NCBI GenBank assembly: GCA_018399635.1
Contig: JAGYOH010000008.1
Span: 1 to 64,000 of the forward strand
DNA from: Clostridia bacterium
GTDB taxonomy: Bacteria; Bacillota; Clostridia; Peptostreptococcales; Acidaminobacteraceae
Direction: 5' to 3'
Length of the DNA: 64,000 bases
Shown: piece after piece, positions 10,717 through 60,865 of the stretch
Layout: each line of letters starts with the position of its first letter
How positions within the stretch are numbered: position 1 is the first letter of the stretch
The notes under the pieces: generated by a model
Told to the model about the DNA's origin: nothing
Database searches by the model: none
What the model saw: the letters and a program-made list of their open reading frames with translations, nothing else
Program-made: the position numbers and the translations under genes

Positions 10717-10788
10717 TGACGGTCAGGGGCCTGCAAAGGCTTAGACCTTGGAAATTTGATTGCAACTGAAAAGGCGGGGTCGGGGTTT

Positions 10789-28500: not shown

Positions 28501-29649
28501 TTAGAGGATTTCGTTGAGGACAAGACTCTCCCTGCCGCCCTCAAGGTAGATCCGGGGAATCCGGGAGGCGAGTCGGGCCAGGATTTCATTTTTGTTGGTG
28601 GCTGCCAGAACCGCCAGTTCGGCCACCGGCAGGCCCTCTCCGAAGAGCACCGCTTCGTCTCCAGGACCCACATCGGGTATCAGGGTGACATCCACCATCA
28701 TCTGGTCCATGCAGATGATGCCCACGATGGGGGCCTTCATCCCCCTGATCAGCACATGGCCCCGGTTGGAGAGGTTTCTCGGATACCCGTCCCCGTAACC
28801 CACCGGCAGGGTGGCGATCCGGGTGGTTTTTTCGGCCTTGAAGGTGAAGTCATAGCTGACCCCTTCCCCGGGCTCCAGGGTGTTGAGATGGGTGACTCTG
28901 GTGACGAACCGGGCCACGGGCCTGAGGTGGACGTCCTCACTGTGATAGGATTTGAGACCATAGAGGGCGGCTCCCGGCCGGATCATGTCCAGACGAAAAT
29001 CAGGATAATCGATGCCGGAGATGCTGTCGGCGACATGGACCAGGTCAAAGCTAGCCCCCAGGTCTCCGAGGAAATCCTTGAAAGCCCTGAGCTGCTTCTG
29101 GTCTTCCTCCGGTGAGCATAGGGCCAGATGGGTGAAGATTCCCTCCACCTCAAGATGGGGCAGTTTCAGAATTTCGGCGATTTCGATTCCGGATTCCGGG
29201 GTGGGACTCAGGCCCAGCCGGTTGAAACCGGTATTGATTTTGAGATGGACCTTGACGGTAGTCCCGCTTTCAAGGGCGATGTTTTCAAGAATCCTGGCCT
29301 GGTGAAGGGAAAAAATCGTGAGGGTGATTTGATGAGCAACACCGGTTTCAAGGTACTCGTCAGGGGTGTGTCCCATGACGAAAAGGGGATAGGCCGCCCC
29401 GGATTGTCTGAGGGCCAGGGCTTCGAGCAGGTTTGCGACCCCCAGGTAATCGATGCCCTCTTCATGAAGGGCCCTGGCGATTACCGGCGCCCCCAGACCG
29501 TAGGCATTGGCTTTGATCACCCCGGTGACGGCCACCCGGGGACCTACCAGAGCCTTCAGGGTTCTTAGATTGTCTCTCAGGGCGTCGAGGTCGATGAAAA
29601 GCCGGGTGTCCCGGAGGACCAGGGAGGAATCGTAGGATTGGATCATCAT
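28501..29649 (-). CDS. alr: Alanine racemase
   Basis: A PLP enzyme of 382 residues interconverting L- and D-alanine. Seen: VIKANAYGLG with the PLP lysine Lys46, GFNRLGL, the catalytic Tyr in GVSYDFTF, PVGYGDGYPR and ICMDQMMVDVT. Normal length. GGAGA stands before the start; a second ATG follows directly. The gene is divergent from the M20 amidohydrolase, sharing an AT-rich 89-bp intergenic. Next to peptide-salvage genes it may convert D-Ala from wall peptides as well as supply wall synthesis. Confidence 0.94.
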   Translation of the reverse strand: MMIQSYDSSLVLRDTRLFIDLDALRDNLRTLKALVGPRVAVTGVIKANAYGLGAPVIARALHEEGIDYLGVANLLEALALRQSGAAYPLFVMGHTPDEYLETGVAHQITLTIFSLHQARILENIALESGTTVKVHLKINTGFNRLGLSPTPESGIEIAEILKLPHLEVEGIFTHLALCSPEEDQKQLRAFKDFLGDLGASFDLVHVADSISGIDYPDFRLDMIRPGAALYGLKSYHSEDVHLRPVARFVTRVTHLNTLEPGEGVSYDFTFKAEKTTRIATLPVGYGDGYPRNLSNRGHVLIRGMKAPIVGIICMDQMMVDVTLIPDVGPGDEAVLFGEGLPVAELAVLAATNKNEILARLASRIPRIYLEGGRESLVLNEIL

Positions 29650-29671
29650 AAAATCTCCTTTTTTTTTAAGC

Positions 29672-29706
29672 GAATCATTTACAACAATTCAACAAAATAA
29701 TATGAT
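29672..29706 (+). promoter_or_regulatory. Sigma-A promoter of the M20 gene
   Basis: TTTACA, 17-bp spacer, TATGAT within the alr-M20 intergenic region (-10 at about 29700-29706). Confidence 0.6.
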
Positions 29707-29738
29707 TACGATAAATAAGCTTCGTAAAGGGGTCAGTC

Positions 29739-30935
29739 ATGGAACTAAGAGAAAAGGTAGAGGCCGTAATGGAAGACGTGGTGGCGATTCGTCGCCGGAT
29801 CCATCAACATCCCGAACTGGGATTCGAGGAGGTGAAGACCCAGGAACTCGTCATGAAGACCTTGGAGGCCATGGGAATTGAACATCGTCCCGTGGCAAAA
29901 ACCGGGGTTCTGGGCATCATCAGGGGCAGACAGCCGGGGAGGGTGGTGGCCCTCAGGGCCGACATGGACGCCCTCCCCCTCACGGAGGCGACGGGGGCTC
30001 CCTACGCCTCCAAGCGTCCCGGGGTGATGCACGCCTGCGGTCACGACGCCCATACCGCCATGCTGCTGGGCATGGCCCGGGTCCTCGGCGGCATGAGGGA
30101 GGATTTTGAAGGGACCGTCAAGTTGTTTTTCCAGCCGGCGGAGGAAACCGTGGGTGGCGCCCTCCCTATGATCCAAGAAGGGGTCATGGCCGATCCGAGG
30201 GTGGATTACACCCTGGGCCTTCACGTGATGCCCCAGCATCCTGCAGGGGTCGTCTCCCTCAAGTACGGCAAGATGAACGCATCCACCGATACCGTCACAG
30301 TAAAGATCACCGGCAAGGGGGGGCATGGCGCCTATCCCCATCAGGCGGTGGATGCCGTCCTCATCGCCGGACATGTGATTACGGCCCTGCAGTCCATCGT
30401 CAGCCGGAGCGTCTCCCCCCTGGATGCCGTAGTGCTGAGTTTCGGCAGGATTTCCGGGGGCACGGCCGACAACATCATTGCGGATGAAGTGGTGCTCACA
30501 GGGACTCTGAGAGCCCTTGATGAAGGCGTCCGGGCCATGGTCAAGGACAGAATCAAGGCTGTCGTGGCGGACACCTGCACCGCTCTCGGGGGCGTGGGGG
30601 AGACCAGGATCAAGGCCGGCTACAACGCTCTGATCAATGATGACGGGGTGGTGGAGGTGATCCGGGAAAACGCCGCTTCTCTTCTAGGGGAATCCCGGGT
30701 GCTGGTGGCCAAGGAGCCCAGTCTCGGGGCCGAGGACTTTTCCTTCTTCCTCAACCACAGCCGGGGGGCCTTTTTCAACCTGGGCTGCGGCAATGAGTCA
30801 AGGGGCATCACCCAGGGACTCCATCATCCCGGCTTTGATATCGATGAGGCCTGCATGACAATCGGGATCCAGCTTCAGATCATGAATACCCTGTCTTTAC
30901 TCGGAGGAAGAATCCCCGACGGTGGCGGCCTCTAG
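29739..30935 (+). CDS. M20-family amidohydrolase
   Basis: A 398-residue metallohydrolase of the M20D type (N-acyl-amino acid or aminoacyl amidohydrolases, hippurate-hydrolase-like). Seen: RRIHQHPELGFEE, LRADMDALPLTEATG, the metal-binding MHACGHDAHTAMLLG, PAEETVGGALPMI with the catalytic Glu, LHVMPQHPAG and the C-terminal GAEDFSFF. No signal peptide, so it is cytoplasmic. Likely substrates are N-acyl amino acids or short peptides; related enzymes deacetylate diaminopimelate derivatives. The 3' end overlaps the convergent S66 gene by 39 bases. Confidence 0.88.
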   Translation: MELREKVEAVMEDVVAIRRRIHQHPELGFEEVKTQELVMKTLEAMGIEHRPVAKTGVLGIIRGRQPGRVVALRADMDALPLTEATGAPYASKRPGVMHACGHDAHTAMLLGMARVLGGMREDFEGTVKLFFQPAEETVGGALPMIQEGVMADPRVDYTLGLHVMPQHPAGVVSLKYGKMNASTDTVTVKITGKGGHGAYPHQAVDAVLIAGHVITALQSIVSRSVSPLDAVVLSFGRISGGTADNIIADEVVLTGTLRALDEGVRAMVKDRIKAVVADTCTALGGVGETRIKAGYNALINDDGVVEVIRENAASLLGESRVLVAKEPSLGAEDFSFFLNHSRGAFFNLGCGNESRGITQGLHHPGFDIDEACMTIGIQLQIMNTLSLLGGRIPDGGGL

Positions 30936-31856
30936 AAAGTCGACGGTCATCTCGTCGCCGTCGATCCTGACGGTGACCCCCAGGGGTATGGTGAACTGGG
31001 GTGAGACGTGGCCGGCCCTGAAATTGTAAAGGACGGGCTTGTCGTATTTCGACAGGATCTCCCTGAAAATGGTCTTCAAGGGGAGGTCCACCTTGCCCTG
31101 ATAGCCCTCCTCCGCCTTGCATCCGTGGAAGGTTCCCAGGATGATTCCCGCCGCATCCCTGAACTTGCCGCTGAGATCAAGGGACATGAGCATCCGGTCC
31201 ATGACATAGTGGTATTCGTGGACCTCTTCGATGAAGAGGATTCTGTCCCGGGTGTCGATCTCATAGGGGGACCCCAGGGCGGCGGTGAGGAGGGACAGGT
31301 TCCCGCCCACGATCCGTCCCGTGGCGGTACCTCCCTGAAGGGCCGTGAGAGGCTCTCCCGGGGGAGGCTGGTAAAGTCCCAGGGCTTTGTTTCCCATGAG
31401 GTTTTTTTTCAACCAGTCGAAGGTGTAGGGATTGTCGGGATAGAGGGGGGGCTGGCCGTAGGCGGTGGGACCGTGGAAGGTGATGAGGTCCGAGAGCCGG
31501 TTCAGTGGCAGGTGCAGACCCGTGATATCGCTGTAGCCGAGAAAAACCTTGGGATGCCTCCGAATCATATCGAAGTCGATCATCTCAAGGAGTCTGGGGG
31601 TGCCGTAACCGCCCCTGAGGGCGATGACCCCCTTGATTTCGGGATCGGCAAAGGCCGCATTCACATCCCCGGCCCTGAGGGCGTCCTCTCCGGCCAGGTG
31701 GCCGTGGCGGGCATGACAGCTCGGGTAGAAAACCGGCTTCAAGCCCAGGGCCTCCATGGCCTCCCTGGCGACGGCGATATTTTCAGGCAGGATGGGGGAT
31801 GAGGGGGCGACGATGGCGACGGTGTCCCCCTTTGACAAGACTTTTGGCTTGATCAT
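30897..31856 (-). CDS. LD-carboxypeptidase (S66 family)
   Basis: A 319-residue S66 serine peptidase. Family members (LdcA, YkfA, MccF) cut the L,D bond before the terminal D-Ala of murein tetrapeptides, or resist microcin C. Seen: N-terminal LSKGDTVAIVAPSSP, RGGYGTPRLL, the nucleophile Ser in FLGYSDITGLH, VGGNLSLLTAALGSPYE, the catalytic Glu in FIEEVHE and the His in FRAGHVSPQ. No signal peptide, consistent with action on imported muropeptides. Divergent from the M19 dipeptidase and next to a peptide importer, it supports a wall-peptide recycling role. Confidence 0.9.
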   Translation of the reverse strand: MIKPKVLSKGDTVAIVAPSSPILPENIAVAREAMEALGLKPVFYPSCHARHGHLAGEDALRAGDVNAAFADPEIKGVIALRGGYGTPRLLEMIDFDMIRRHPKVFLGYSDITGLHLPLNRLSDLITFHGPTAYGQPPLYPDNPYTFDWLKKNLMGNKALGLYQPPPGEPLTALQGGTATGRIVGGNLSLLTAALGSPYEIDTRDRILFIEEVHEYHYVMDRMLMSLDLSGKFRDAAGIILGTFHGCKAEEGYQGKVDLPLKTIFREILSKYDKPVLYNFRAGHVSPQFTIPLGVTVRIDGDEMTVDFLEAATVGDSSSE

Positions 31857-31930
31857 GGTGGCAATTCTCCTTTAAAAAAGTTATTCTAACCATATTATAA
31901 GCGAATTCTATGCCAATATTGGAGGACATT

Positions 31931-32938
31931 ATGGAAATTCAGAAAATCGCGAAGGAAATTCATGAAAATTCCCCCCTTGTCGACGCCCATCTGGATCTCG
32001 GGGCCATCGTCTATGAAGGCAAGCGCCGGGGAGAAACCAGGGTCATCGAAGAGCACTTTCTAGGGCCCTTCAAGGCGGCGGGAATCAAACTGGTGGTGGG
32101 AGCCATTTTTGTGGATGATATCTATCTCCCTGAAAAGGCCCTCAGGGTGGCCATCAACCAGGTGGAGGACGTCCTCGAGGAAATCGAGGAAAGCTCCGAC
32201 CTGATGCTGGTCACGGATGGCGGGAGTCTCGAAGCCTGCCTGGAGGGTGACCGGATCGGGATCATTCTCTCTTTAGAGGGGGCGGATCCTCTCTACGACG
32301 ACCTGGATCTTCTGAAGGTCTTTTACAGACTCGGCGTCCGGGGACTGGGACTCACCTGGAGTCGCAGGAATTCTGCCGCAGACGGCAGTTTCTTCAGTCC
32401 CAGGGTCCAGGGAAAGGTGGGAGGACTCACCCCCTTCGGCGTGGCCCTGATCAGGGAGGCCGAGGCCCTGGGGATGTTTCTGGACTACAGTCATCTCAAC
32501 GACGAGGGCTTCCTTGACGCGGTGGCTTTCTCTGAAAAACCCTTCATCTTCAGCCACTCGAACTCAAGGGCGCTTCATCCCTCCATGCGAAACATTTCCC
32601 ACGAGATGATGGAGGTTCTCAAGGCCAGGGGCGGCGTCATCGGCATGAACGGGGTCCGCTCCCTGATCAGCGATGAGAGAGAGCGCCACACGATCGCCTG
32701 TTTCGCGGATCATTTCGAGGATACCTTGAAGCTGACGGGCTACGACCATGTGGGCCTGGGCCTCGATCTGTGCAATCTGATCATGCCCCGGGCCTATCCC
32801 GTGGACCTGCTGGAGGATCACGGACAAGTCATTCTCATCACCGAGGAACTGTTGAGAAGGGGACACCGGGCGGCGGATCTCGAGAAAATCCTGGGGGGCA
32901 GTTTCCTCCGGTTCTTTCAAAAACACTGGGAGCTGTGA
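31931..32938 (+). CDS. Membrane dipeptidase-type peptidase (M19)
   Basis: A 335-residue zinc dipeptidase of the renal-dipeptidase family, which cleaves L,D- and L,L-dipeptides. Seen: the metal motif LVDAHLDLG, a Glu in ILSLEGADPL, LGLTWSRRNSAADG, IFSHSNSRALHPSMRNI and HVGLGLDLCNL. ATG 31931 is chosen because GGAGG lies 5-6 nt upstream; an earlier ATG (31910) has no site. No signal peptide, so cytoplasmic, as bacterial M19 enzymes usually are. Its ability to cut bonds to D-residues suits it to wall-derived dipeptides. Its stop lies just before the sigma-54 activator gene. Confidence 0.88.
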   Translation: MEIQKIAKEIHENSPLVDAHLDLGAIVYEGKRRGETRVIEEHFLGPFKAAGIKLVVGAIFVDDIYLPEKALRVAINQVEDVLEEIEESSDLMLVTDGGSLEACLEGDRIGIILSLEGADPLYDDLDLLKVFYRLGVRGLGLTWSRRNSAADGSFFSPRVQGKVGGLTPFGVALIREAEALGMFLDYSHLNDEGFLDAVAFSEKPFIFSHSNSRALHPSMRNISHEMMEVLKARGGVIGMNGVRSLISDERERHTIACFADHFEDTLKLTGYDHVGLGLDLCNLIMPRAYPVDLLEDHGQVILITEELLRRGHRAADLEKILGGSFLRFFQKHWEL

Positions 32939-32943: not shown

Positions 32944-34782
32944 ATGGGAGACATACTGAAGCACAATGATTTGCTGCACATTCTTGAAGAAGGAATCCTG
33001 GTGGTCAATCGCGATTTCGTCCTTGAGTACATGAACCCCAAGGCCAAGGAGATTCTGGGGCTGAGTTTCGGTGCCGCTGAGGTTCCCCATGAGGCGGGGG
33101 TCATCGAGGCGGGGGATATCGTCATCCTTGCGGACAACCGTCTGGGCTGTGACGACGGTTTCCTCAGGGCGGAGGACCTCAGATGCCTCGGCATCAAGGC
33201 CAAGGACCTCCTGGAGGGGGATGCCCTGATCGCCATGGGTACCTACGAGGATGCCAAGGGCAAGCCCTTGTACCGGGTCTTCAAGTCCTCGGGCTCGGAG
33301 CTGGTCTATCGTCTTGAAGGGAAGCAGCGGGGCCTGTCCATTGCGGTGACCATCGACGAGGAGGCCAAGGTGATCACCGTGGTGTCGGACCGGGGTTCCT
33401 TCAGCATGAAGTATTTCTACTGTATCGGGTTCATGGTGGTCCTCAGCGGCAAGACCCTGGCTCCCAGATTCTATCAGCGCAGAGGGTATTCCTACCGCGG
33501 GGAGTCCCTGAAGGACCTCCTTCAAGGCGGAGCCTTCCAGGAAAAAAGAACCACCCCCACGGAGGTGGATATTCTGGGGGCCCGGCTCGATACCTTCCCG
33601 GGACACGAGGAGATCACCAGCCACCTCAAGGAGGCCTTCCTCCAGCAAAGAGGATTCAGGGGAAGAATCACCGAGATCAACAAGATTCCGATTCTCAGCA
33701 GTGTCACCCTCTTCGAGGAGGGGGCCATGATCCGCATCGAGAACATCCAGGAGATCGAGGATGTCCTCAAGTTCCGCAATCAGGCCTTCGACAACCTCAT
33801 CAAGCGGGACGACTTCATCCGGGGCCGGCTTGCCATGAACCAGGAGGATCATTTTAAAAAAATCACCGGCAACAGTGCGGCCATCGCCAAGACCAAGCAT
33901 CTGGCCTACAAGGCGGCCACCGTGGATACCACGGTGATTCTCACCGGAGAGAGCGGCACGGGGAAGAGTCTGCTGGCGGCTGAAATCCACAAAAAAAGCG
34001 GCAGACAGGGGGAATTCGTCCATGTCAACTGCGGGGCCATTCCGGACAATCTCTTTGAAAGTGAACTCTTCGGCTACGTGAAGGGCTCCTTTACCGGGGC
34101 TTCCAATCAGGGCAAGATCGGCTATTTTGAAGCGGCCCGGGGGGGAACCATTTTTCTGGATGAGATTGCCGAAGTGCCCATACATATCCAGTCCAAGCTG
34201 CTCCACGTTCTGCAGGAAAAACAGTTCTACCGGATCGGGATGACCCATCCCTCCACCACGGATGCCAGGGTGATCGCCGCCACCAACATCGATCTGGAAA
34301 AGGCCGTGAGGGAGGGGCGGTTCCGCAAGGACCTCTACTACAGGGTCAATGTGTTCCCCATCCAGCTCCCTCCCTTGAGAAAACGCAAGCAGGATCTGCC
34401 CCGGCTGATCCTGGAACTGACCAGGACCGTCAGCCTGCGCTACGGCTTCGCTGAAAAGCAGCTCTCCGGAGATGCCCTTCAAAAGGTGATGGACTACGAC
34501 TGGCCGGGAAACGTCAGGGAACTAGAAAATGTGCTGGAGCGGGCGGTGATCATCTCCGACAGCGGAATCATCTATCCGGAGCATATCGATATTTCCCAGG
34601 ACCCCATGGCCTACTATCTCAAGGATATTCTGGAGATTACAGAAAAGAAGACCATCCTGGAGACCCTGGAGGCATGCAATTATTCCAACAAAATCACCAT
34701 GAGAAAATTGGGGATTTCCAAATCCGCCTATTACGACAAAATGAAAAAATACGGGATTGATCCCTTAAAAAGACCAGATTGA
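32944..34782 (+). CDS. Sigma-54 enhancer-binding activator
   Basis: A 612-residue bacterial enhancer-binding protein. The N-terminal PAS-like sensor (HILEEGILVVNRDFVLEYMNPKAKEILG) and a long regulatory region to about 310 are followed by an AAA+ domain with Walker A GESGTGKS (335-342), GSFTGA loop (381-386; usual GAFTGA), GGTIFLDEIAEVP (Walker B) and the arginine-finger region; the C-terminus has a Fis-type helix-turn-helix (NKITMRKLGISKSAYYDKMKKYG). Such proteins drive sigma-54 promoters; one lies 76 bp downstream. ATG 32944 is used; GTG 32935 overlapping the M19 stop is also possible. The signal it senses is unknown; peptides or amino acids are likely. Confidence 0.92.
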   Translation: MGDILKHNDLLHILEEGILVVNRDFVLEYMNPKAKEILGLSFGAAEVPHEAGVIEAGDIVILADNRLGCDDGFLRAEDLRCLGIKAKDLLEGDALIAMGTYEDAKGKPLYRVFKSSGSELVYRLEGKQRGLSIAVTIDEEAKVITVVSDRGSFSMKYFYCIGFMVVLSGKTLAPRFYQRRGYSYRGESLKDLLQGGAFQEKRTTPTEVDILGARLDTFPGHEEITSHLKEAFLQQRGFRGRITEINKIPILSSVTLFEEGAMIRIENIQEIEDVLKFRNQAFDNLIKRDDFIRGRLAMNQEDHFKKITGNSAAIAKTKHLAYKAATVDTTVILTGESGTGKSLLAAEIHKKSGRQGEFVHVNCGAIPDNLFESELFGYVKGSFTGASNQGKIGYFEAARGGTIFLDEIAEVPIHIQSKLLHVLQEKQFYRIGMTHPSTTDARVIAATNIDLEKAVREGRFRKDLYYRVNVFPIQLPPLRKRKQDLPRLILELTRTVSLRYGFAEKQLSGDALQKVMDYDWPGNVRELENVLERAVIISDSGIIYPEHIDISQDPMAYYLKDILEITEKKTILETLEACNYSNKITMRKLGISKSAYYDKMKKYGIDPLKRPD

Positions 34783-34786: not shown

Positions 34787-34822
34787 CGGGTTTTCCGAAA
34801 AAAAGGAAAACCCGCTTTTTTT
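34787..34822 (+). terminator. Terminator after the sigma-54 activator
   Basis: CGGGTTTTCC (34787-34796) and GGAAAACCCG (34805-34814) pair over an A-rich loop and are followed by C and seven T. The symmetric sequence could also be part of an enhancer site, but the T run favours termination. Confidence 0.8.
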
Positions 34823-34855: not shown

Positions 34856-34872
34856 TTGGCACTCATTTTGCA
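34856..34872 (+). promoter_or_regulatory. Sigma-54 (-24/-12) promoter of the peptide transporter
   Basis: TTGGCAC (34856-34862), then TTGCA (34868-34872). The invariant GG (34858-34859) and GC (34870-34871) are exactly 10 bp apart, as the sigma-54 consensus TGGCAC-N5-TTGCW requires. An activator gene lies directly upstream and a peptide-transport operon downstream. Confidence 0.88.
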
Positions 34873-34920: not shown

Positions 34921-36564
34921 ATGAAAAGAAAACTGAGTGTGTTGTTGATTGCCGTACTGGTAATGGCTTTCATCTTTTCCGGGTGCTCGGCACCTGCGGC
35001 ACCGGCGGAGGAAGCTGAACCTGCGCAACCGGTGACCTTGAGGATCGGGGCCAAAACGGAACCGGATTCTACGAGTCCCCTGATCGCCACCCTTTCCGCC
35101 TATGATATCATCGACAATCTGGTCTATGACGATCTCATCGAGTACGATGATGATCTCAATCCCGTGGGATCCCTGGCGGAATCCTGGAGTGTCAGCGATG
35201 ACGGCCTGGAATGGACCTTTGTCCTGAAAGAGGGCGTCACCTGGTTCGATGGAGAAGCCTTCAACGCCGATGACGTGGTGTGGACCTACAATGCCCTGGT
35301 CAAGGGTGAATTCCCCCAAAGCGTCCAGCTGGCCGGGGTGACCAAGGCTGAAAAAATCGATGACTACACCGTGAAGGTTTTCACGGAAGCGCCCAAGGCC
35401 GACATGGAAGCCGCCAGAGTCTCCATCCTGCCGGAGCACATCTATTCAGGCCATGCCCTGGAGGAGCTCAATACCTTTGCAGAGGACTTCCCCGTAGGGA
35501 CCGGCCCCTTTGAAATGGTGGCCTGGGAACCGGGACAGTTCATCAAGTTCCAGGCCAATGACGCCTATTTCGAAGGCGCCCCCCAGATCGACGAAATCGT
35601 CTACGTCTTTTTCGCCAATGACGACACCCTGACCCAGGCCCTGATGGTGGGTGAGGTGGACGCGGTCACCACCGTGGCGACGACCCAGATCGACACCCTC
35701 AAGGCGGATGCCGATATCGAAGTGGTTCAGGCCCTGGGCAGGAACTTCACACAGCTGGGCTTCAATTGCTGGGAATCGGAAGAATCCCTGGGCAATCCCC
35801 TGGTACTGGATCCCGCCATTCGTCTGGCGACGGACTGGGCTCTTGACAAGGAAGAAATCGTCGCCATCGCCTTGAACGGTCTGGGAACCCCCGGCACCGC
35901 CCTGATTCCTCCTTCAGTCGGGGAATGGCACTGGGAACCCGGTGATGAGCTCCACACCTACAATCCTGAAAAAGCCCGAGAAATTCTCGAAGCCGCCGGC
36001 TACACCGATACGGACGGGGATGGCATCCGGGAAGACAGCGAAGGCAACAAGCTGGACTTCAGATTCGCCGTCATTTCCAGCTACGGAGAAGCCTATGTGA
36101 AGGCCTCCGCCATCATTCAGAAGAATCTTCAGGACATCGGCATCGGCACCACCATCACCCTGATGGACGGCGGCGCCCAGTCAGACCTCATCTACGAGCA
36201 GAACTTTGATACCGACATGTTCATCTGGGGATGGGGCACCGAGCTTGACCCCAGTCTCAAACTTTCCGTGCTGCTGACGGAACAGGTGGGAAAAAGAAGC
36301 GACGCCTTCTACTCCAATGAAGAATACGACGCCCTTTATCAAAAGCAGCTGGTCGAGGTGGACCGTGAGAAACGCGTGGCGATCGTCCATGAAATGCAAA
36401 GCATCGTTTACGAAGAAGCCCCCTATGTCATCCTTTACAACAAGGACTCCATCGAGGCTTACAGAACCGACAAGTTTGAGGGATGGACCCAGGTGCCTTC
36501 AGGAATCGGCACCACCATCACCCAGGTCAACAAATCCAATTTCCTCAACGTGAAGCCGAAATAA
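34921..36564 (+). CDS. Peptide ABC transporter substrate-binding lipoprotein
   Basis: A 547-residue family 5 solute-binding protein (DppA/OppA type). N-terminal lipoprotein signal MKRKLSVLLIAVLVMAFIFSGC with the lipid-modified Cys22, then an Ala/Pro/Glu linker and the SBP_bac_5 fold (GSLAESWSVSDDGLEWTFVLKEGVTWFDGE, typical of the family). It captures di- or oligopeptides at the outer membrane face for the permeases that follow. First gene of the sigma-54 operon; GGAGG 7 nt before ATG. A strong hairpin after its stop probably protects its mRNA so it is made in excess. Confidence 0.92.
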   Translation: MKRKLSVLLIAVLVMAFIFSGCSAPAAPAEEAEPAQPVTLRIGAKTEPDSTSPLIATLSAYDIIDNLVYDDLIEYDDDLNPVGSLAESWSVSDDGLEWTFVLKEGVTWFDGEAFNADDVVWTYNALVKGEFPQSVQLAGVTKAEKIDDYTVKVFTEAPKADMEAARVSILPEHIYSGHALEELNTFAEDFPVGTGPFEMVAWEPGQFIKFQANDAYFEGAPQIDEIVYVFFANDDTLTQALMVGEVDAVTTVATTQIDTLKADADIEVVQALGRNFTQLGFNCWESEESLGNPLVLDPAIRLATDWALDKEEIVAIALNGLGTPGTALIPPSVGEWHWEPGDELHTYNPEKAREILEAAGYTDTDGDGIREDSEGNKLDFRFAVISSYGEAYVKASAIIQKNLQDIGIGTTITLMDGGAQSDLIYEQNFDTDMFIWGWGTELDPSLKLSVLLTEQVGKRSDAFYSNEEYDALYQKQLVEVDREKRVAIVHEMQSIVYEEAPYVILYNKDSIEAYRTDKFEGWTQVPSGIGTTITQVNKSNFLNVKPK

Positions 36565-36572: not shown

Positions 36573-36602
36573 GGGGGATAGAGAAAACCTTCTCTATCCC
36601 CC
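36573..36602 (+). terminator. Stem-loop after the binding-protein gene
   Basis: A 13-bp perfect stem (GGGGGATAGAGAA with its complement) over AACC at 36573-36602. There is no T run (CTTAAAAA follows), so it is more likely a 3' stabiliser or partial attenuator between the binding protein and permease genes than a full terminator. Confidence 0.7.
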
Positions 36603-36628: not shown

Positions 36629-37600
36629 ATGAATATCAATTATATTTTGAAAAAACTGTTTCATTCCATGATCACCGTTTTGATCGTGATCACCATCAAC
36701 TTCTTTTTGTTCCGCGTAATGCCGGGTGACCCCTTTGCCATGATCGCCAAGGCGGGAAACCTTTCAGCAGAATACAAGGAATCCCTCAGTGCCCTCTACG
36801 GCTTTGACGAAGCTTACCACATTCAGTATCTGAAATACATCAAGCAGCTTTTGACCTTTGATTTCGGACTGAGTTTCAAATACAGGAAACCCGTGTTGGA
36901 GGTCCTGGGCAATCGATTGATGGCCACCCTGCTCCTGGCCTTTTTCGCCCAGATCTTCGCCATCGTGGCCGGCGCCGTGATCGGAACGATTTCAGCGGCC
37001 TTCAGGGGCAAGAAGATCGATGTCTTCGCCCTGGGCTTCGCTCTTTTAGTGTATGCGATTCCCGCCTTCTGGCTGGGAATCGTACTGGTGCTGTTTTTCT
37101 CCGTGAAACTCGGCGCCTTCCCCCTCAATGGCATGGTGGTGGCCGGGCTGACCCATCCCACCACCTGGGCCTATGTGATGGATGTGGCCAGGCACCTTTT
37201 CCTGCCGGTCTTCACCATGGGCATGGCCATCATGGGAGGCTATGCCATCATCATGAGGGGCTCCTTGCTGGACGTTCTGACGGAGGATTACATCACCACC
37301 GCCAGGGCCAAGGGCTTCAAACGCCGGGATATCGTCATCCACCACGCCCTTCCCAACGCCCTCCTGCCCATGGTGACGGTGATCGCCATCAATATGGGCT
37401 TCATGATCAGCGGGGCGATCCAGACGGAAACCGTCTTCAGCTGGCCGGGAATCGGCCGACTGGTTTACGAGGCCCTGATGGCCAGGGACTATCCGGTGCT
37501 CCAGGGTGCCTTTCTGGTCATCAGTATCACGGTGATCCTGGCGAATCTCATCGCCGATATCCTGTACGGGTATCTTGATCCCCGCATCAAGTACGATTAA
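36629..37600 (+). CDS. Peptide ABC transporter permease (DppB type)
   Basis: A 323-residue inner-membrane permease with six predicted helices, one of the two channel subunits of a dipeptide/oligopeptide importer. N-terminal helix (LFHSMITVLIVITINFFLFRVMPGDPF) is typical of DppB/OppB, as is the EAA loop (DYITTARAKGFKRRDIVIHHALPNALLP) that contacts the ATPases. Follows the binding protein after a stem-loop; AAAGGTGTGAGG precedes the start. Part of the sigma-54 operon. Confidence 0.93.
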   Translation: MNINYILKKLFHSMITVLIVITINFFLFRVMPGDPFAMIAKAGNLSAEYKESLSALYGFDEAYHIQYLKYIKQLLTFDFGLSFKYRKPVLEVLGNRLMATLLLAFFAQIFAIVAGAVIGTISAAFRGKKIDVFALGFALLVYAIPAFWLGIVLVLFFSVKLGAFPLNGMVVAGLTHPTTWAYVMDVARHLFLPVFTMGMAIMGGYAIIMRGSLLDVLTEDYITTARAKGFKRRDIVIHHALPNALLPMVTVIAINMGFMISGAIQTETVFSWPGIGRLVYEALMARDYPVLQGAFLVISITVILANLIADILYGYLDPRIKYD

Positions 37601-37611: not shown

Positions 37612-38493
37612 ATGACTTACAATCGTGAAAATTTCGAATTGAAAAAGAAGAATATCAATCGTTTCATCACCCTTTTCAAGGGGAACTCCATGGGCGTCAT
37701 CGGATTCTATATCATCGTCTTCTTCCTCGTGGTGGCGGTATTCGGCCCCATGATCTACCAGTACAATCCCCAGGATTTCAACAGCGCCCATATGATCGAA
37801 GCCCCGTCGAAGCAGTTCATTCTGGGCACCGACGACATGGGCAGGGACATTCTCGGCGCCCTGATCTACGGTTCAAGGGTCTCCCTCCTCATCGGCATCT
37901 TCGCCACCCTGATTTCAGTCTTCATCGGGACCCTGATCGGATTGGTCTCCGGCTTCATCGGGGGAAGGCTCGACAGCGTCCTCATGCGTTTCACCGACGG
38001 CTTCATGGTGCTGCCCAAGCTGCCCCTGATCATGATCCTGGCGGCCCTGCTGGGTTCGAGCACGAGAAACATCATCGTGGTCCTGGGACTGACGAGCTGG
38101 ACGGGGACCGCCCGACTGGTGAGATCCCAGACCCTCTCGGTGAAGCAGCGGGCTTTTGTTGAAAGGGCCTTCGCCGTGGGGGCGGGGCGGGTGTATATCA
38201 TGCTCAAGCACGTGCTCCCCAATGTCTTCCCCCTGGTGTTTTCCAACACGATTCTGGTGACCGCCACGGCGATTCTGACGGAGACCACCCTGAGTTTCCT
38301 GGGTCTTGGAAATCCCATGGTGCCCAGCTGGGGTCAGATTCTCAGGGGCGCCTTCACCTCCGGCGCCGTCAGCATCGGTGCCTGGTGGTACTTTATTCCC
38401 GCAGGCCTGGCTGTCATCGTCCTGGTTCTGGGATTCACCTTTTTAGGGTACTCCTTTGATGAAATTCTCAATCCAAAGCTGAGGAGCCGGTAA
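37612..38493 (+). CDS. Peptide ABC transporter permease (DppC type)
   Basis: A 293-residue partner permease with the OppC-type N-terminus (LFKGNSMGVIGFYIIVFFLVVAVFGPMI), the FILGTDDMGRDILGALIYGSRVSLLIG motif and the EAA loop (FVERAFAVGAGRVYIMLKHVLPNVFPLV). Normal length, in contrast to the enlarged homologue at 57430. It starts 11 nt after dppB and ends 1 nt before the ATPase start, so the genes are tightly coupled. Confidence 0.93.
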   Translation: MTYNRENFELKKKNINRFITLFKGNSMGVIGFYIIVFFLVVAVFGPMIYQYNPQDFNSAHMIEAPSKQFILGTDDMGRDILGALIYGSRVSLLIGIFATLISVFIGTLIGLVSGFIGGRLDSVLMRFTDGFMVLPKLPLIMILAALLGSSTRNIIVVLGLTSWTGTARLVRSQTLSVKQRAFVERAFAVGAGRVYIMLKHVLPNVFPLVFSNTILVTATAILTETTLSFLGLGNPMVPSWGQILRGAFTSGAVSIGAWWYFIPAGLAVIVLVLGFTFLGYSFDEILNPKLRSR

Positions 38494-38494: not shown

Positions 38495-39478
38495 ATGAAA
38501 GCGGAAAAAATTTTGGAGGTCAAGGACCTCAGGACTTATTTCAAGATACGCGAGGGGGTCGTCAAGGCGGTTGACGGGGTGAGTTTCGTCCTCAACCGGG
38601 GAGAATCCCTGGGACTTGTGGGAGAGTCGGGCTGCGGCAAGACCACCACGGCCCTGTCTGTGATCAAGCTCCTCTCAGACAACGGCACCATCGAATCCGG
38701 GGAGATTCTGTTCAAGGGCAGGGACCTGGCCAAGCTGACGGAGGAGGAGATCCTGACCCACCGGTGGAAGGATATTTCCATGATATTCCAGGGGGCCATG
38801 AACTCCATGAATCCCGTGATGAAAATCTCCCGGCAGATCGTCGAGGTCATCCGCCTCCATGAGCCGGAGGTTGGCGAGGAGGAGGCCAGGACAAGGGTCA
38901 AGGAACTCTTCAGGCTGGTGAACCTCGACCCGGACCTCATGGACTCCTATCCCCATGAATTCAGCGGCGGCATGAGGCAGAGGGCCATCATCGCCATGTC
39001 CCTGGCCCTGAATCCCTCTCTGATCATCGGAGATGAGCCGACCACGGCCCTGGATGTGATGGTCCAGGCCCAGATCATCGACCTGATCAACCGCCTCCGG
39101 CAGCAGCTGGGGATGAGCATGATCATGATCACCCACGATCTTTCCATCATTGCGGAAACCTGCGACCGGGTGGTGGTGATGTACGCCGGCAAGGTGGCGG
39201 AAATCGGGCCGGTGGCGGAAATCATCAAAAATCACCATCATCCCTACACGGAAAAACTGATCAAGGCCTTCCCCGACATCTACGGAGAGCGGGAGATGGT
39301 GGCCTCGATTCCCGGGGTGCCGCCCAACCTCATCGATCCCCCCAAGGGGTGCCTTTTTGCCCCGAGATGCCATAAAAAAATCGGGAAAATCTGTGACGAG
39401 GTGGTGCCGGAGCTGGTGGCCGTAGCCGGCAGCCGTCATTTCGTCGCCTGTCATCTGTGGGGTGAAAGTCATGAGTAA
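38495..39478 (+). CDS. Peptide ABC transporter ATPase (DppD type)
   Basis: A 327-residue ATPase: Walker A GESGCGKTT, signature SGGMRQR, Walker B and DEPTTALD, H-loop ITHDLS. The C-terminal oligopeptide-transporter extension has the motif GVPPNLIDPPKGCLFAPRC with clustered Cys residues; in relatives these bind an Fe-S cluster or metal. It overlaps the next ATPase gene by 8 bases. Part of the sigma-54 operon. Confidence 0.93.
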   Translation: MKAEKILEVKDLRTYFKIREGVVKAVDGVSFVLNRGESLGLVGESGCGKTTTALSVIKLLSDNGTIESGEILFKGRDLAKLTEEEILTHRWKDISMIFQGAMNSMNPVMKISRQIVEVIRLHEPEVGEEEARTRVKELFRLVNLDPDLMDSYPHEFSGGMRQRAIIAMSLALNPSLIIGDEPTTALDVMVQAQIIDLINRLRQQLGMSMIMITHDLSIIAETCDRVVVMYAGKVAEIGPVAEIIKNHHHPYTEKLIKAFPDIYGEREMVASIPGVPPNLIDPPKGCLFAPRCHKKIGKICDEVVPELVAVAGSRHFVACHLWGESHE

Positions 39479-40475
39479 TCTGGTGGAATTGAAAAATCTC
39501 AAGATCCATTTTCAGATCAGGTCCAGCTTTTACGAAGAGGTCCTCAGGGGTCGTCGTCGGATCATCAAGGCGGTGGACAATGTCAACCTCGGGATCAAGA
39601 AGGGGGAGATATTTTCTCTGGTGGGAGAATCGGGAAGCGGCAAGACCACCACGGGAAGGGGCATCCTGCAGCTGGTCAAAAAAACCGACGGGGAGATCCT
39701 CTTCGACCAAGAGGCCGTCAGACCCGGGGACAAGGCCTACATGCGCCGGTTCAGGGAAAGGGCCCAGATGATTTTTCAGGATCCCTACCAGTCCCTCAAT
39801 CCCAAATTCACCGTCAAGGAAATCGTGGCGGAGCCCCTGCAGTTGATGGGGAAGGCCCTGAGTGCCGCCGACCAGGAGGACAAGGTGATCGAAGCTCTGG
39901 AATTTGCGGGTCTCAAGCCCGGGCGGGACTTTCTTTACCGCTATCCCCATGAACTCAGCGGGGGACAGCGGCAAAGGGTGTCCATCGCCACCTGCTTCAT
40001 CATGGATCCTGACTTCATCGTGGCGGACGAACCGGTTTCCATGCTCGACGCCTCCGTCAGAGCGGATATCCTCAAGCTCTTCGTGGCCATGAAGGCCCAG
40101 AAGAACACCTCGATTCTCTTCATCACCCATGATCTGTCCCTGGCCTGGCTCATTTCAGACCGGATCGCCATCATGTATCTCGGAAAAATCGTGGAGATCG
40201 GCAGTGCCGGACTCATTGCCGGCGGCGCCCTCCATCCCTATGCCCAGGCCCTCACCAGCGTCCTCACCGTGGTGGGCAGTGATATCAAACGGGAGCGGAT
40301 CGTCCTCGAGGGAGAAACCCCCTCTCCCATGAATGTGCCACCGGGCTGTCGCTTCCATACCCGTTGCCCCTATGTCCAGGAGCAGTGCCGCAGTCTGCAA
40401 CCGGAGCTCAGGGAGATTGAACCGGACCATTTTGTGGCCTGCCACTTTCCCAGACCCATTGAAAACATCACTTAA
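39471..40475 (+). CDS. Peptide ABC transporter ATPase (DppF type)
   Basis: A 334-residue second ATPase with Walker A GESGSGKTT, signature SGGQRQR, Walker B ADEPVSMLDAS and a C-terminal PPGCRFHTRCPYVQEQC motif. ATG 39471 overlaps the end of the first ATPase and follows GGGGTGAAAG. DEPVSMLDAS is the usual form in this subfamily. Completes the importer started at 34921. Confidence 0.93.
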   Translation: MSNLVELKNLKIHFQIRSSFYEEVLRGRRRIIKAVDNVNLGIKKGEIFSLVGESGSGKTTTGRGILQLVKKTDGEILFDQEAVRPGDKAYMRRFRERAQMIFQDPYQSLNPKFTVKEIVAEPLQLMGKALSAADQEDKVIEALEFAGLKPGRDFLYRYPHELSGGQRQRVSIATCFIMDPDFIVADEPVSMLDASVRADILKLFVAMKAQKNTSILFITHDLSLAWLISDRIAIMYLGKIVEIGSAGLIAGGALHPYAQALTSVLTVVGSDIKRERIVLEGETPSPMNVPPGCRFHTRCPYVQEQCRSLQPELREIEPDHFVACHFPRPIENIT

Positions 40476-40486: not shown

Positions 40487-41329
40487 ATGGAAAAATTATC
40501 CTTAGAAGCAAGACTCAGAGCTGAAGTCATCAGTTTCAGCGGTCATGTGAGCTTTTATGCCAATGACTTCAAGGGCCATGTGATTTCAGTCAATGCCCAT
40601 GAGCAGTTTGAAGCGGCGAGTGCCATCAAGGTCTTCATTCTGGCTGAATTCTTCAGACAGGTCCATGAGGGCCGACTCGATCCCCACCGGCTGCTGGCAT
40701 ACAAGAAGGAAAACTATATCACCGGCAGCGGGCTCCTGCGGCATCTCGACTTCGGGGTCACCCTGTCTGCAGTGAACCTGGCCCGGATGATGATCATCAT
40801 CAGTGACAATATCGCCACCAACACCCTCATCGACGTCCTGGGCATCGACAACATCAACGACACCATCAGGGAACTGGGTTTCTCCAGCACGAAACTTCAC
40901 AACAAAATCGATTTTGACAGGTATGAAAGACTGGGGACCACCACCCCCAGGGACTACGGGGTCTTTTTTGAAAAACTCAGAAGTGAAGCCCTCTGGTCCA
41001 GGGAGGCTTCCCGGCAGATGCTGGACATCTTCAAGAAACAGCAGTACAACCGGATGCTGACCAAGGATTTTCCCCAGTATTATCTGGATTCCGAGGACAC
41101 CGGGGATGAGGAACTCATCACCGTGGCTTCAAAAAGCGGTTCCATGGATGCGGCGAGAAACGACGGCGGCATCGTCTACACCCCCTACGGGAGTTATGTC
41201 ATTGTCATTTTCACCAAGCAGTTCAAGGATCCCCTCTATTACAACGATCATGAATCCTATATCTACGGCGGCAGGGCCTCCAGACTGATCTTCGACCAGT
41301 ACCTGGCCCTCAGGGGCAGATTTGAATGA
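40487..41329 (+). CDS. Cytoplasmic beta-lactamase-fold serine hydrolase
   Basis: A 280-residue class A beta-lactamase/penicillin-binding-type hydrolase (COG2367-like). Visible motifs: SxxK at Ser45-Lys48 (SAIK), SDN at 106-108, and KSG at 216-218; TTTPRDY follows the omega region. Two points are odd: there is no signal peptide or membrane anchor, and the omega-loop motif ExxLN with the deacylating Glu of true class A beta-lactamases is missing (YERLGTTTP instead). A lactamase role is thus unlikely; a peptidase, transpeptidase-like or amidase role on imported peptides is more probable. It is the last gene of the sigma-54 operon (12 nt after the ATPase), so it acts with the importer. Confidence 0.85.
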   Translation: MEKLSLEARLRAEVISFSGHVSFYANDFKGHVISVNAHEQFEAASAIKVFILAEFFRQVHEGRLDPHRLLAYKKENYITGSGLLRHLDFGVTLSAVNLARMMIIISDNIATNTLIDVLGIDNINDTIRELGFSSTKLHNKIDFDRYERLGTTTPRDYGVFFEKLRSEALWSREASRQMLDIFKKQQYNRMLTKDFPQYYLDSEDTGDEELITVASKSGSMDAARNDGGIVYTPYGSYVIVIFTKQFKDPLYYNDHESYIYGGRASRLIFDQYLALRGRFE

Positions 41330-43611: not shown

Positions 43612-44511
43612 TTATAGGACTTCCTTGAAGGTGTCGATGACTTCCTTCAGACTTTCGATGTAGTCGGGGGACAGGGGGGTGAGCATCCTGGTGATGCCGC
43701 CGAGTTCCCCGGCGATGGTTTCCGCCTGCTCGGAATCGAATTCCGCCTGGTAGAAGATGACTTTGATGCCTTTGTCCCTGGCATAGGCGATGATGTCTTC
43801 AATGCCCCTGGCCGTTTCCTCCTTGCCGTCATCCTCGATGGCCAGCATTTCAAAGCCGTAATCGTCGGCGAAGTAGCCGTAGGAGGGGTGGTACATGATA
43901 AAGGCTCTTTGACTCAAGGCCCCGGTCTCTTCCTCGATGTACCGGTGAAGTTCCTCCAGCTCGTCAAGATAGGCGTCCCGGTTGGCTTCGAAGGTTTCCT
44001 TCATTTCTGGATGGTCCGCCACGAGGACTTCGGTGATGGTCCTGACCATTTCCATGGCCCTCAGGGGTGACAACCAGATATGGGGATCCCGGCCTACATG
44101 GCCGTGGTCCTCCCCCTCCTCCTCCTCTTCGTGGGCTTCCTCCTCGAAGAAGCGGTCCGGGTAGATCCCGGCCACGGCTTCGTTGACCCTGATCAAGGTC
44201 ACGTCCTCATTGAACTCGGAAATCTTGGGCAGGATATTGGCCACCTCCGTCGGAACGGCGATGGAAAAATAGTAGGTGGCCTGACTGATCTTGAGCATCT
44301 CCTCCGGGGTGGGCTGGTAACTGGCCGGAGAAGCGCCGGGGGGGACGATGGCCACCACCTCGTAGGCCTCCCCCACCACCTTTTCGACAAAGGTCCTGGT
44401 GGGAACGATGGAAGTGATGATCACCGGTTTTTCTGAAGCTTCAGGCTGGCTGCAACCGGAAAAAACGGCAAGAACCGTTATAAGCGATACAAGCAGGGCG
44501 ATTTTTTTCAT
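43612..44511 (-). CDS. Zinc-type ABC transporter binding lipoprotein
   Basis: A 299-residue cluster A-I metal-binding protein (ZnuA family). The lipoprotein signal ends LAVFSGCSQ. A His/acidic loop (HEEEEEGEDHGHVGRDPHIW) stands at the usual place and suggests Zn2+. Other ligand candidates: PPGASPASYQPTPEEM, HPSYGYFADDYG. ATG 44511 is chosen because GGAGG lies 8 nt upstream; an ATG seven codons earlier lacks a site. Divergent from the Fur-family regulator with a palindromic operator between. Confidence 0.92.
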   Translation of the reverse strand: MKKIALLVSLITVLAVFSGCSQPEASEKPVIITSIVPTRTFVEKVVGEAYEVVAIVPPGASPASYQPTPEEMLKISQATYYFSIAVPTEVANILPKISEFNEDVTLIRVNEAVAGIYPDRFFEEEAHEEEEEGEDHGHVGRDPHIWLSPLRAMEMVRTITEVLVADHPEMKETFEANRDAYLDELEELHRYIEEETGALSQRAFIMYHPSYGYFADDYGFEMLAIEDDGKEETARGIEDIIAYARDKGIKVIFYQAEFDSEQAETIAGELGGITRMLTPLSPDYIESLKEVIDTFKEVL

Positions 44512-44541
44512 GACGGCTTCCTCCTCTTGCAAGTCGTTTGC

Positions 44542-44560
44542 AAATGATATATAATCATAT
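44542..44560. promoter_or_regulatory. Fur/Zur-like operator between znu-type operon and regulator
   Basis: ATGAT (44544-44548) and ATCAT (44554-44558) form a dyad around ATATA, extended by AA and TT outside. It lies in the 84-bp divergent intergenic region where a Zur or Fur dimer would repress both genes. Confidence 0.55.
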
Positions 44561-56499: not shown

Positions 56500-57420
56500 T
56501 TGGCTTCATATCTTTTGAAAAGGATTCTTGCCATGGTCATCACCCTCTGGTTTGTCATCACCATCACCTTTTTTCTGATGCACGCCATTCCAGGAGGCCC
56601 CTTTTCTTCGGAAAAACAGTTGCCGGACGAGGTGCTAGAAGCCCTCAATGAAAAATACCACCTCAATGATCCCCTGTACAAACAGTATTTCGATTATCTC
56701 GGAGGAGTCATGACCTTTGATTTCGGGCCCTCCTTCAAGCGGGTCGGGATCTCCGTCAATGATCTGATTTATTCAGGATTCCCGGTCTCCGCCAAGGTGG
56801 GGGGGATGAGCATCCTGGTCATCATTCTCATGGGCATTCCCATAGGCATCATCTCGGCCCTGAAACAGAATTCTCCTACGGATTATTTCGTCACCATCAT
56901 GGCCACCATCGGAGTGGCGGTGCCCAACTTCGTCATCGCCACCGTGATCATCTATATCTTCAGTTCCCGTCTCGGGATTCTGCCCTCCCACGGGCTGACC
57001 TCCTGGGTGCATTACCTCGGACCGGTGGTTTCCCTCAGTGGTTTTTCCCTGGCCTTCGTGGCCCGGTTGACCCGGTCCAGCATGCTTGAGGTGATGCAGC
57101 AGGATTATATCAGAACCGCCAGAGCCAAGGGTCTCGACGAGGGCGTGGTGATTTTTAAACACGCGCTCAAAAATGCCCTGATTCCCGTGGTGACCTACAT
57201 GGGGCCCATGATCGCCGCGATTCTGACGGGATCCTTTGTCATCGAAAGAATTTTCGCCATTCCCGGCATGGGCAAGTACTTCGTCGAGTCCGTGGGGAAC
57301 CGGGACTACACCGTCATCATGGGGATCACCATCTTTTACGCCCTCTTCGCCATCGTGATGATTCTGATCGTGGATATCATCTACGGCCTCATCGATCCAA
57401 GAATAAAATTTTCAGATTAG
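56500..57420 (+). CDS. Peptide ABC transporter permease (OppB type), second system
   Basis: A 306-residue OppB-family permease: N-terminal helix (RILAMVITLWFVITITFFLMHAIPGGPF), EAA loop (QQDYIRTARAKGLDEGVVIFKHALKNALIPVVTYMG) and ERIFAIPGMGKYFVESVGNRDY. TTG 56500 is the start because AAAGGAG lies 9 nt upstream. First gene of the second oligopeptide importer. Confidence 0.92.
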   Translation: MASYLLKRILAMVITLWFVITITFFLMHAIPGGPFSSEKQLPDEVLEALNEKYHLNDPLYKQYFDYLGGVMTFDFGPSFKRVGISVNDLIYSGFPVSAKVGGMSILVIILMGIPIGIISALKQNSPTDYFVTIMATIGVAVPNFVIATVIIYIFSSRLGILPSHGLTSWVHYLGPVVSLSGFSLAFVARLTRSSMLEVMQQDYIRTARAKGLDEGVVIFKHALKNALIPVVTYMGPMIAAILTGSFVIERIFAIPGMGKYFVESVGNRDYTVIMGITIFYALFAIVMILIVDIIYGLIDPRIKFSD

Positions 57421-57429
57421 GAGGTTCAC

Positions 57430-58629: not shown

Positions 58630-58641
58630 GGAGGCACATTC

Positions 58642-59637: not shown

Positions 59638-59638
59638 C

Positions 59639-60646: not shown

Positions 60647-60783
60647 CAGGGGTTTTTTGGGCCACTGATGAGGGCTGGGATTCCTTGAGCCGGATAAAAA
60701 AAATTATATGCTGAAAGACCTTGCTAAATAGCGGTTTAAGGCGTTTGAATCAATAGAAAAAGAGCCATGAATTTAGAGAATTG

Positions 60784-60812
60784 TTGATAAAAACAAGGGG
60801 AAGGTTTATAAT
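60784..60812 (+). promoter_or_regulatory. Sigma-A promoter of the second binding-protein gene
   Basis: TTGATA (60784-60789), 17-bp spacer, TATAAT (60807-60812). The preceding gap 60647-60783 holds no other signal I can name. Confidence 0.8.
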
Positions 60813-60817
60813 ACAGT

Positions 60818-60833: not shown

Positions 60834-60865
60834 TGAGTTTAGAAATAGAAAGGGAGGGGATTTTA

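Follow-up and report, generated by a model that had tools for sequence, protein, structure and literature searches.

The sigma-54 promoter at 34856-34872 and the enhancer-binding protein (EBP) gene adjoining it are likely to constitute a one-component switch for the uptake and breakdown of wall peptides, comprising the oppABCDF transporter, an inverted repeat that would act as enhancer and terminator alike, and a divergent S66 peptidase arm. Directly observed in the window (the whole 64 kb stretch of DNA that was analysed) and in its homologous loci were the intactness of the proteins, the sites themselves, how far both are conserved and the company of genes in which they occur.

The promoter, TTGGCACTCATTTTGCA, lies on the plus strand upstream of oppABCDF and consists of TTGGCAC and TTGCA on either side of TCATT, with exactly 10 bases between GG and GC. 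The preliminary description of a consensus sigma-54 (-24/-12) element, TTGGCAC-N5-TTGCA, with an exact GG-N10-GC match was therefore confirmed in its letters and its 10-base gap. The element is flanked by the intact EBP gene and oppABCDF. The order of EBP stop, promoter and oppA was correctly given beforehand, but the accompanying distances of 74 and 49 bp are coordinate differences: the EBP stop codon (34780-34782) is followed by 73 intervening bases, the promoter, 48 bases and the oppA ATG at 34921, and the leader letters show AGGAGG five bases ahead of this ATG. Nowhere else in the 64 kb window is TTGGCACN5TTGCA matched exactly. Allowing up to two mismatches yielded four window matches (one exact and three with two mismatches) against a shuffle mean of 4.15, and since this total is at the shuffle level, only the exactness of the match at 34856-34872 counts. 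From the density of exact matches, the chance of an exact right-strand match among the 122 possible positions between EBP and oppA was calculated to be about 1 in 3,900. In a congeneric genome, all consensus positions of the promoter are kept, with 14 of its 17 letters identical, and only 14 of the 33 bases between the T tract and the promoter are identical. An equivalent promoter was found at the same place in three homologous loci (L116, L117 and L118).

The genome (2.36 Mb in 36 contigs, 95.6% complete) was shown to carry the sigma factor itself. The preliminary description had named the lack of an rpoN gene as evidence against its claim; one full-length rpoN is present on the same contig as the window, encoding 451 residues with the AID (PF00309), core-binding (PF04963) and DNA-binding (PF04552) domains. 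A search with PF00158 returned 12 strong matches and two weak ones. Eleven of the 12 EBP genes adjoin a -24/-12 site with at most one mismatch, “adjoining” being defined as downstream on the same strand, no more than 1.2 kb from the AAA+ domain, or divergent at up to 3.2 kb, and an EBP paired with a promoter is hence the usual arrangement in this genome. Genome-wide, the pattern TTGGCAYN5TTGCW gave 10 exact matches and 45 matches with at most one mismatch, as against 17 with a reversed-pattern control; sites adjoining EBP genes make up six of the 10 exact matches (0.11 expected) and seven of the 35 with one mismatch (0.39 expected).

Two other stretches of the same genome were recorded alongside. 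On contig C12 (around 10755-10923, L079), an M20 gene and a further oppABCDF operon are separated by two exact -24/-12 sites in back-to-back orientation, and the operon is followed by a different, convergent EBP gene; this is probably a second sigma-54 peptide unit, to judge from its sequence. On contig C34 (around 11340, L081), an EBP gene is accompanied by a divergent -24/-12 site with one mismatch, with oppABCD several kb further along that strand.

Homologous loci were gathered to follow the arrangement beyond this genome. With the first 303 EBP residues as the query, 33 of 61 genomes (own included) matched at E <= 1e-10, and a 36-sequence profile found matches at E <= 1e-15 in 14 (own included) of 391 genomes sampled evenly across the class. 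The 91 loci collected (29 of the 38 matches in relatives, 61 named loci and the window) were reduced to 81, window included, by the removal of two without a family frame, two with cut EBPs and six duplicates (more than 97% identity over the last 400 residues); these 81 are mutually related, so locus counts are not independent. The closest genome, that of L116 (LQBE01000008.1), is titled delta proteobacterium ML8_F1, a label that looks wrong, and the other loci are mostly labelled Clostridia or Bacillota. In 76 loci the sequence extends for 600 bases or more past the EBP; a -24/-12 site on the same strand, no further than 600 bp from the EBP stop, is present in 41 of them (window included) and missing by this criterion from 35; the wrong strand gave 1/76, the surroundings predict 1.25, and 200 shuffles gave a mean of 0.125 and a maximum of 2. 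Given the single full-length rpoN, the sites adjoining 11 of 12 EBP genes and these 41 loci, a chance match between EBP and oppA appears unlikely. Together, the sequence, the rpoN gene and the comparison over the 81 loci support the sigma-54 type of the promoter claimed earlier, the role of the upstream EBP as its likely activator and the assignment of a peptide transporter as the target.

The target operon begins with oppA (34921..36564, plus strand, as are all genes of the operon), which encodes a family 5 peptide-binding lipoprotein (PF00496, 276.9 bits) whose nearest solved chain is AppA (1xoc). It is followed by the permease genes oppB (36629..37600; PF00528) and oppC (37612..38493; PF00528, PF12911), by the ATPase genes oppD (38495..39478) and oppF (39462..40475), both with PF00005 and PF08352, and, as the last gene, by one for a serine hydrolase of the class A beta-lactamase fold (40487..41329; PF13354, 186.9 bits). 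The hydrolase reached 71.6 bits with the class A equivalog model, for which 200 are needed, and its gene stands at the equivalent place in L116 and L121. A 13-bp hairpin at 36573-36602, between oppA and oppB, is terminator-like on the minus strand only; hairpins often stand behind binding-protein genes, and this one could favour oppA expression. A further complete set of peptide transporter genes, oppBCDF followed by one for a binding protein, was noted at 56500-62431 with no -24/-12 match in front; this binding protein shares 54% identity with a cluster representative, and in other genomes that cluster is an EBP-promoter target. Between a minus-strand gene reading like a zinc-binding lipoprotein and a FUR-family gene (PF01475), the inverted repeat TTGCAAGTCGTTTGCAA at 44527-44544 appears in the sigma-54 pattern scan merely as one-mismatch hits, and its sequence is possibly that of a Zur/Fur-type operator.

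Directly upstream of the EBP gene, and probably co-transcribed with it, lies a plus-strand gene for an M19 dipeptidase (31931..32938; PF01244), for which the start at 31931 was chosen from the ribosome-binding site and the score of 241.1 bits was obtained with a longer frame from 31910 onward. The nearest solved chains of its product are GliJ, dipeptidase 3 and the M19 dipeptidase AC. Two genes further upstream are linked to the pathway by association, namely that of an M20 amidohydrolase/peptidase (29739..30935, plus strand; PF01546) and that of alanine racemase, alr (28501..29649, minus strand; TIGR00492, 315.4 bits with a cut-off of 168); a scan of the gap between them, from 29649 to 29739, gave no -24/-12 match.

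The nature of the peptides concerned was judged from the company of the EBP gene in its relatives, the genes within 8 kb of it being clustered in the 81 loci and cluster representatives scanned. Diaminopimelate decarboxylase (LysA) was found in 48 of the 81 loci (representative 462.6 bits, cut-off 297.9), S66 in 38, M20 in 31, alanine racemase in 24, oppB in 21, M19 in 20, diaminopimelate epimerase (DapF) in 18 (representative 213 bits, cut-off 114.65), the class A beta-lactamase fold in 15, an SDF symporter in 14 and an amidohydrolase in seven. Scores below the model cut-offs were obtained for an M55 peptidase in nine loci (clear with Pfam M55; 180 bits with the NCBIfam DppA model, below its cut-off of 430), a protein of M15 D-Ala-D-Ala dipeptidase type in eight (141 bits, below the cut-off of 176) and one of Ala/Glu epimerase type in seven (246 bits of 500). 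Two small membrane proteins with a Gate domain (PF07670), which may form a peptide or amino-acid carrier, occur in 23 of the 81 loci each, often beside S66, M20 or lysA; examples are found in L149 (12144-13345), L121 (7957-8685), L057 and L065.

When LysA, DapF, S66, Alr, Ala/Glu epimerase, M55, M15 and M19 were taken as eight stem-peptide families, at least one was present in 71 of the 81 loci, two in 51 and three in 29, and none in the other 10, several of which lie on short contigs. The first gene behind the promoter, in the 43 loci with one, encodes LysA in 14, a family-5 binding protein in 12 (from two separate clusters) and DapF in two, the rest being other or unplaced. In L118, which is about as distant from the window as L117, alr, lysA, dapF, M55, M20, S66, M19, EBP and opp are found together. 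The window itself yielded no lysA, dapF or Ala-Glu epimerase homologue in the search with cluster representatives, and the only lysA match of the genome sits on another contig; the wall-peptide reading here consequently rests on S66, M19, M20 and Alr together with the relatives, by whose gene content the regulon probably handles wall-derived or D-amino-acid peptides rather than peptides in general.

The same promoter and activator could alternatively respond to the general supply of peptides and amino acids for fermentation, the wall-peptide genes of the relatives being incidental, an explanation that we regard as unlikely. The M19, M20 and Opp families have broad substrates, ordinary peptides included, and at least two further Opp units lie near EBP genes in this genome, one of them with the back-to-back exact sites. 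In addition, amino-acid and peptide catabolism is often under sigma-54 control in Clostridia, according to parts of PMC6615313 and PMC7438776. On the other hand, LysA, S66, Alr and DapF, with the frequencies given above, are not genes for ordinary peptides, and neither these four nor any other of the eight stem-peptide families was found near the other 11 EBP genes of the genome (11 stretches, about 183 kb), M20 and Opp each being present in two of these stretches.

Returning to the wall-peptide switch, a candidate upstream activator site, TTCCGAAAAAAAGGAA, occupies 34793-34808, with one mismatch to TTCCG-N6-CGGAA and its centre 55 bp upstream of the promoter. This motif was first spotted by eye in intervals of the unnamed loci (18 downstream and 15 divergent). 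An unbiased dyad search of the 43 promoter-bearing EBP intervals, using gapped inverted half sites of four and five letters with spacers of 0-14, ranked TCCG-N6-CGGA first (15 intervals, 0.03 expected) and TTCCG with the N6 spacer third (10 intervals, 0.0 expected). With at most one mismatch, TTCCG-N6-CGGAA occurs in 21 of the 43 intervals (shuffle mean 0.27, maximum 2), with at most two in 32 (shuffles 2.6, maximum 7), and even at two mismatches it is missing from 11; it was also present, at one mismatch or fewer, in 12 of the 24 non-duplicate intervals gathered after the motif had been chosen. Geosporobacter subterraneus (L131), a cultured environmental relative, is among the carriers of EBP locus, promoter and motif. 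Many loci have two or three copies, and in half of the 32 copy-bearing intervals a copy is centred 46-70 bp ahead of the promoter, two of these 16 being poor matches. Within the genome itself, 30 of the 45 sigma-54 candidates were examined, and a copy with at most one mismatch within about 310 bp upstream was found only at 34856-34872; at two mismatches, four of the 30 have a copy. One of these four belongs to an EBP-promoter pair on contig C1 (around 192734, L086), where the related repeat TTCCCGCTTTTGGGAA, with two mismatches, stands 62 bp upstream of an exact -24/-12 site and is possibly another overlap of terminator and enhancer, or a terminator only.

Seven matches to the motif with at most one mismatch are scattered over the 64 kb window, such that a single copy alone is weak evidence; a perfect copy at 43720-43735, inside a minus-strand coding region, is taken as chance, the motif alone not being specific. 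The preliminary description had suggested seeking the upstream activator site towards the 3' end of the EBP gene, a location that did not hold: in the window, the 3' coding part contains no copy of TTCCG-N6-CGGAA at two mismatches or fewer, and the candidate lies in an intergenic terminator hairpin. Elsewhere, nine of the 25 first copies run across the stop codon of the EBP gene (L123, L126, L127, L166, L169, L171, L057, L058 and L063), which the copy in the window does not. Altogether, the sequence comparison makes TTCCG-N6-CGGAA the probable activator site of this EBP family.

The hairpin concerned is a predicted intrinsic terminator of the EBP gene (34787..34822, plus strand), in which a 10-bp stem with an 8-nt loop is followed by C and seven T, the stem core being the candidate activator site. 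Its RNA fold of -18.1 kcal/mol (z -3.69) was not equalled in stability by any of 200 shuffles, and the same repeat-in-terminator arrangement was seen in L116, L121, L053 and L063. A longer stem and a T tract accompany seven of the 25 first copies behind the EBP stop, two close relatives (window and L116) being included among the seven, versus three of the 31 other copies; random placement of 25 copies gave a mean of 1.0 with stem and T tract and a maximum of 6 in 500 trials. A first overlap count, in which 10 of 28 intervals had a hairpin against 0.62 expected, was discarded as biased because the motif itself forms a hairpin. In some lineages, a single element is predicted from these sequences to act both as the enhancer and as the activator gene's terminator.

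It is also conceivable, albeit improbable, that the repeat at 34793-34808 is a terminator stem only and that the true activator site lies elsewhere, for example in the EBP coding region. In both the window and L116, the repeat lies wholly within a strong terminator; the window copy is one base off the consensus, and its distance of 55 bp is shorter than the 100-250 bp of most sites covered in part of PMC6615313. Against this stand the 46 of 56 motif copies (at two mismatches or fewer) that have no extended stem and T tract, the several loci with two or three copies, and the recurrent position 46-70 bp upstream of the promoter.

A very improbable proposal is that the promoter is mainly activated by another EBP, the neighbouring one controlling something else. 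The genome has 12 strong EBP matches to choose from, and some EBPs are known to lie apart from their targets (38 EBPs in 12 groups, in the portion of PMC6615313 available); nevertheless, EBP, motif and promoter occur together in 21 of the 43 intervals, and none of the other 29 sigma-54 candidates examined is preceded by a motif with at most one mismatch. Hardly credible, lastly, is the notion that the -24/-12 match is chance or a relic and oppA is read from a sigma-A promoter, for although consensus matches by themselves prove nothing and a housekeeping promoter in the leader, behind the terminator, could act alone, no sigma-70-like match was found between the EBP stop and oppA in a scan of the window from 28 to 42 kb, and the conservation and strand bias of the site speak against it.

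The second arm of the proposed sigma-54 switch is the divergent minus-strand gene at 30897..31856, which encodes an S66 LD-carboxypeptidase/MccF-like serine peptidase (PF02016, PF17676). The protein scored 122 bits with the muramoyltetrapeptide carboxypeptidase model NF008424, for which 378 are needed, and its nearest solved chains are MccF and S66 and LD-carboxypeptidases, MccF acting on another substrate. A second, weaker -24/-12 site, TTGGCATAGAATTCGCT, faces this gene at 31900..31916 on the minus strand; it has an imperfect -12 part and shares bases with a sigma-70-like match, and its GG-N10-GC is kept in L116, L117, L118 and L121. Where S66 is divergent from the EBP gene, a -24/-12 site lies between the two in 12 of 14 loci (window included), with another gene intervening in some. 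No activator site was found within 300 bp of the S66 promoter in the window, and only three of 23 divergent sites have the activator motif with at most one mismatch. On this comparison, the S66 gene is probably governed by the same EBP, with the divergent promoter as part of the regulon.

The EBP gene (32944..34782, plus strand) encodes 612 residues with a split PAS domain, an AAA+ sigma-54 interaction domain (33862-34365) and a putative helix-turn-helix (34618-34758). PF00158 scored 216.9 bits and PF25601 68.2, and the putative C-terminal helix-turn-helix reached 24.2 bits with PF18024 (cut-off 27) in a region partly conserved in the alignment. The translation contains GESGTGKS, FLDEI and GSFTGA, which we take to be the Walker A motif, the Walker B motif and a variant of the GAFTGA loop, respectively. 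The candidacy of the protein as a PrdR equivalog was rejected, as the NCBIfam model NF041552 gave 353.2 bits against a curated cut-off of 795 and covered residues 248-604 only.

Pfam PAS_9 was matched by 28 of 36 members of the EBP family at E <= 0.05, the window member being weak and below the cut-offs. An AlphaFold2 model of the sensor built on the 36 sequences (pLDDT 87.5) has a PAS fold formed by residues ~14-40 and 222-267 and split by a beta-rich part, and VIA-align superposed it on the cytoplasmic PAS domain of CitA (8bjp) with Z 12.8 and an rmsd of 2.1 over 95 residues. The insert, a beta-rich domain of 178 residues encoded at 33067..33600 (plus strand), was modelled alone with a pLDDT of 88.8 and a pTM of 0.83, and has 15 residues, many of them polar, that are invariant in the 36 sequences. 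Foldseek returned no match for it at E <= 0.001, and VIA-align found no convincing solved relative among 973 chains, the best being TMEM2 (Z 4.4, 97 residues, rmsd 3.4); the lack of a close solved match to a predicted model does not show a new fold. We infer that the inserted domain is the likeliest place of ligand recognition.

The mechanism that we propose joins these elements, with EBP binding, activation, termination, signal and substrate as its inferred steps. The 17-mer would be a working sigma-54 promoter for oppABCDF and the serine hydrolase gene. A small molecule, imported or made in the cell, would bind the split PAS sensor of the EBP, the signal most likely being a stem peptide of peptidoglycan or one of its components (meso-diaminopimelate, D-Ala, D-Glu). 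The EBP would then oligomerise on its 16-bp inverted repeat, TTCCG-N6-CGGAA, whose position is about 55 bp ahead of the promoter. From there, its AAA+ ring would touch sigma-54 at 34856-34872 through the GSFTGA loops, ATP being used to open the polymerase complex. The transcript is expected to begin near 34883 and to extend through opp and the hydrolase gene. The intrinsic terminator around the same repeat would stop read-through from the EBP gene, which is proposed to leave the transporter dependent on the sigma-54 promoter. With the same EBP also driving the divergent S66 peptidase gene, the regulon would import and dismantle the stem peptides of the wall.

Such a switch has ample precedent. 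Part of PMC7438776 reports that 23 of the 30 genes or operons with a -24/-12 promoter in C. difficile adjoin an EBP gene, and 39 EBP groups are listed for Clostridiales in the available part of PMC6615313. The one-component EBP/sigma-54 regulons described there (PrdR, CdsR, YpdR, XcyR and others; PMC6615313, in part) likewise have a PAS-AAA+-HTH activator adjoining its target, a TTGGCAT-N5-TTGCT promoter, inverted-repeat activator sites and a role in peptide or amino-acid catabolism. No target in Table 1 of that source bears the name opp, S66, alr, lysA or dapF; some of its names (e.g., pepABC of YpdR) are unexplained in the portion available, and a listed group may overlap with this one. The repeat of other clostridial EBPs is TGT-N10-12-ACA; the dyad search here put TCCG-N6-CGGA first. 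Two SigL units of C. difficile, CD2699-CD2697 (EBP CD2700) and CD2862-CD2860 (EBP CD2863), likewise have a -24/-12 promoter beside an EBP gene (PMC7438776, Table 4, and PMC9130780, each in part) and encode membrane proteins with an M20D peptidase or a dipeptidase, resembling the peptidases found here; the CD2699 unit drops to 0.03-0.09 in a sigL mutant. In the parts of PMC7438776 and PMC9130780 concerned, neither unit names an Opp transporter or an S66 gene, both of which the window has.

With respect to the pathway, the closest parallel is B. subtilis ykfABCD-dpp, in which the LD-carboxypeptidase YkfA, the Ala-Glu epimerase YkfB and a dipeptide ABC transporter stand side by side for stem peptides, as described in part of PMC2954226. 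The window shares the peptide ABC transporter (oppABCDF); its S66 domains are clear, in a protein below the muramoyltetrapeptide carboxypeptidase cut-off, and no homologue of the Ala-Glu epimerase cluster representative was found in it. Its relatives add LysA and DapF. To our knowledge, ykfABCD-dpp is not under sigma-54/EBP control. By analogy, a wall-peptide signal would fit the Ykf/Dpp pathway. No description of this regulon, nor of a dedicated sigma-54 regulator for the use of peptidoglycan fragments, was found in the literature searched. While the mechanism of the switch is known, the regulator family and its regulon are apparently undescribed, and two features, the inserted sensor domain and the candidate enhancer within a terminator, deserve a test.

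A broader reading may be entertained tentatively, as something possible rather than expected: the EBP would represent an undescribed family that senses stem peptides or meso-diaminopimelate in the cytoplasm, with a PAS domain into which a 178-residue domain of unsolved type is inserted, a scavenging regulon across Clostridia (uptake, S66, M19 and Alr, and in relatives also LysA and DapF), and an enhancer that doubles as a terminator in some lineages. Free peptidoglycan fragments are abundant where bacteria die. If the wall-peptide switch proposed above is real, it would provide a defined promoter, an operator motif and a sensor with which to ask which wall fragment an anaerobe senses in its cytoplasm, and target genes open to testing would be available across dozens of Clostridia. 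An enhancer that overlaps its own activator gene's terminator would, in addition, be a compact layout in which cross-talk between both functions is of interest.
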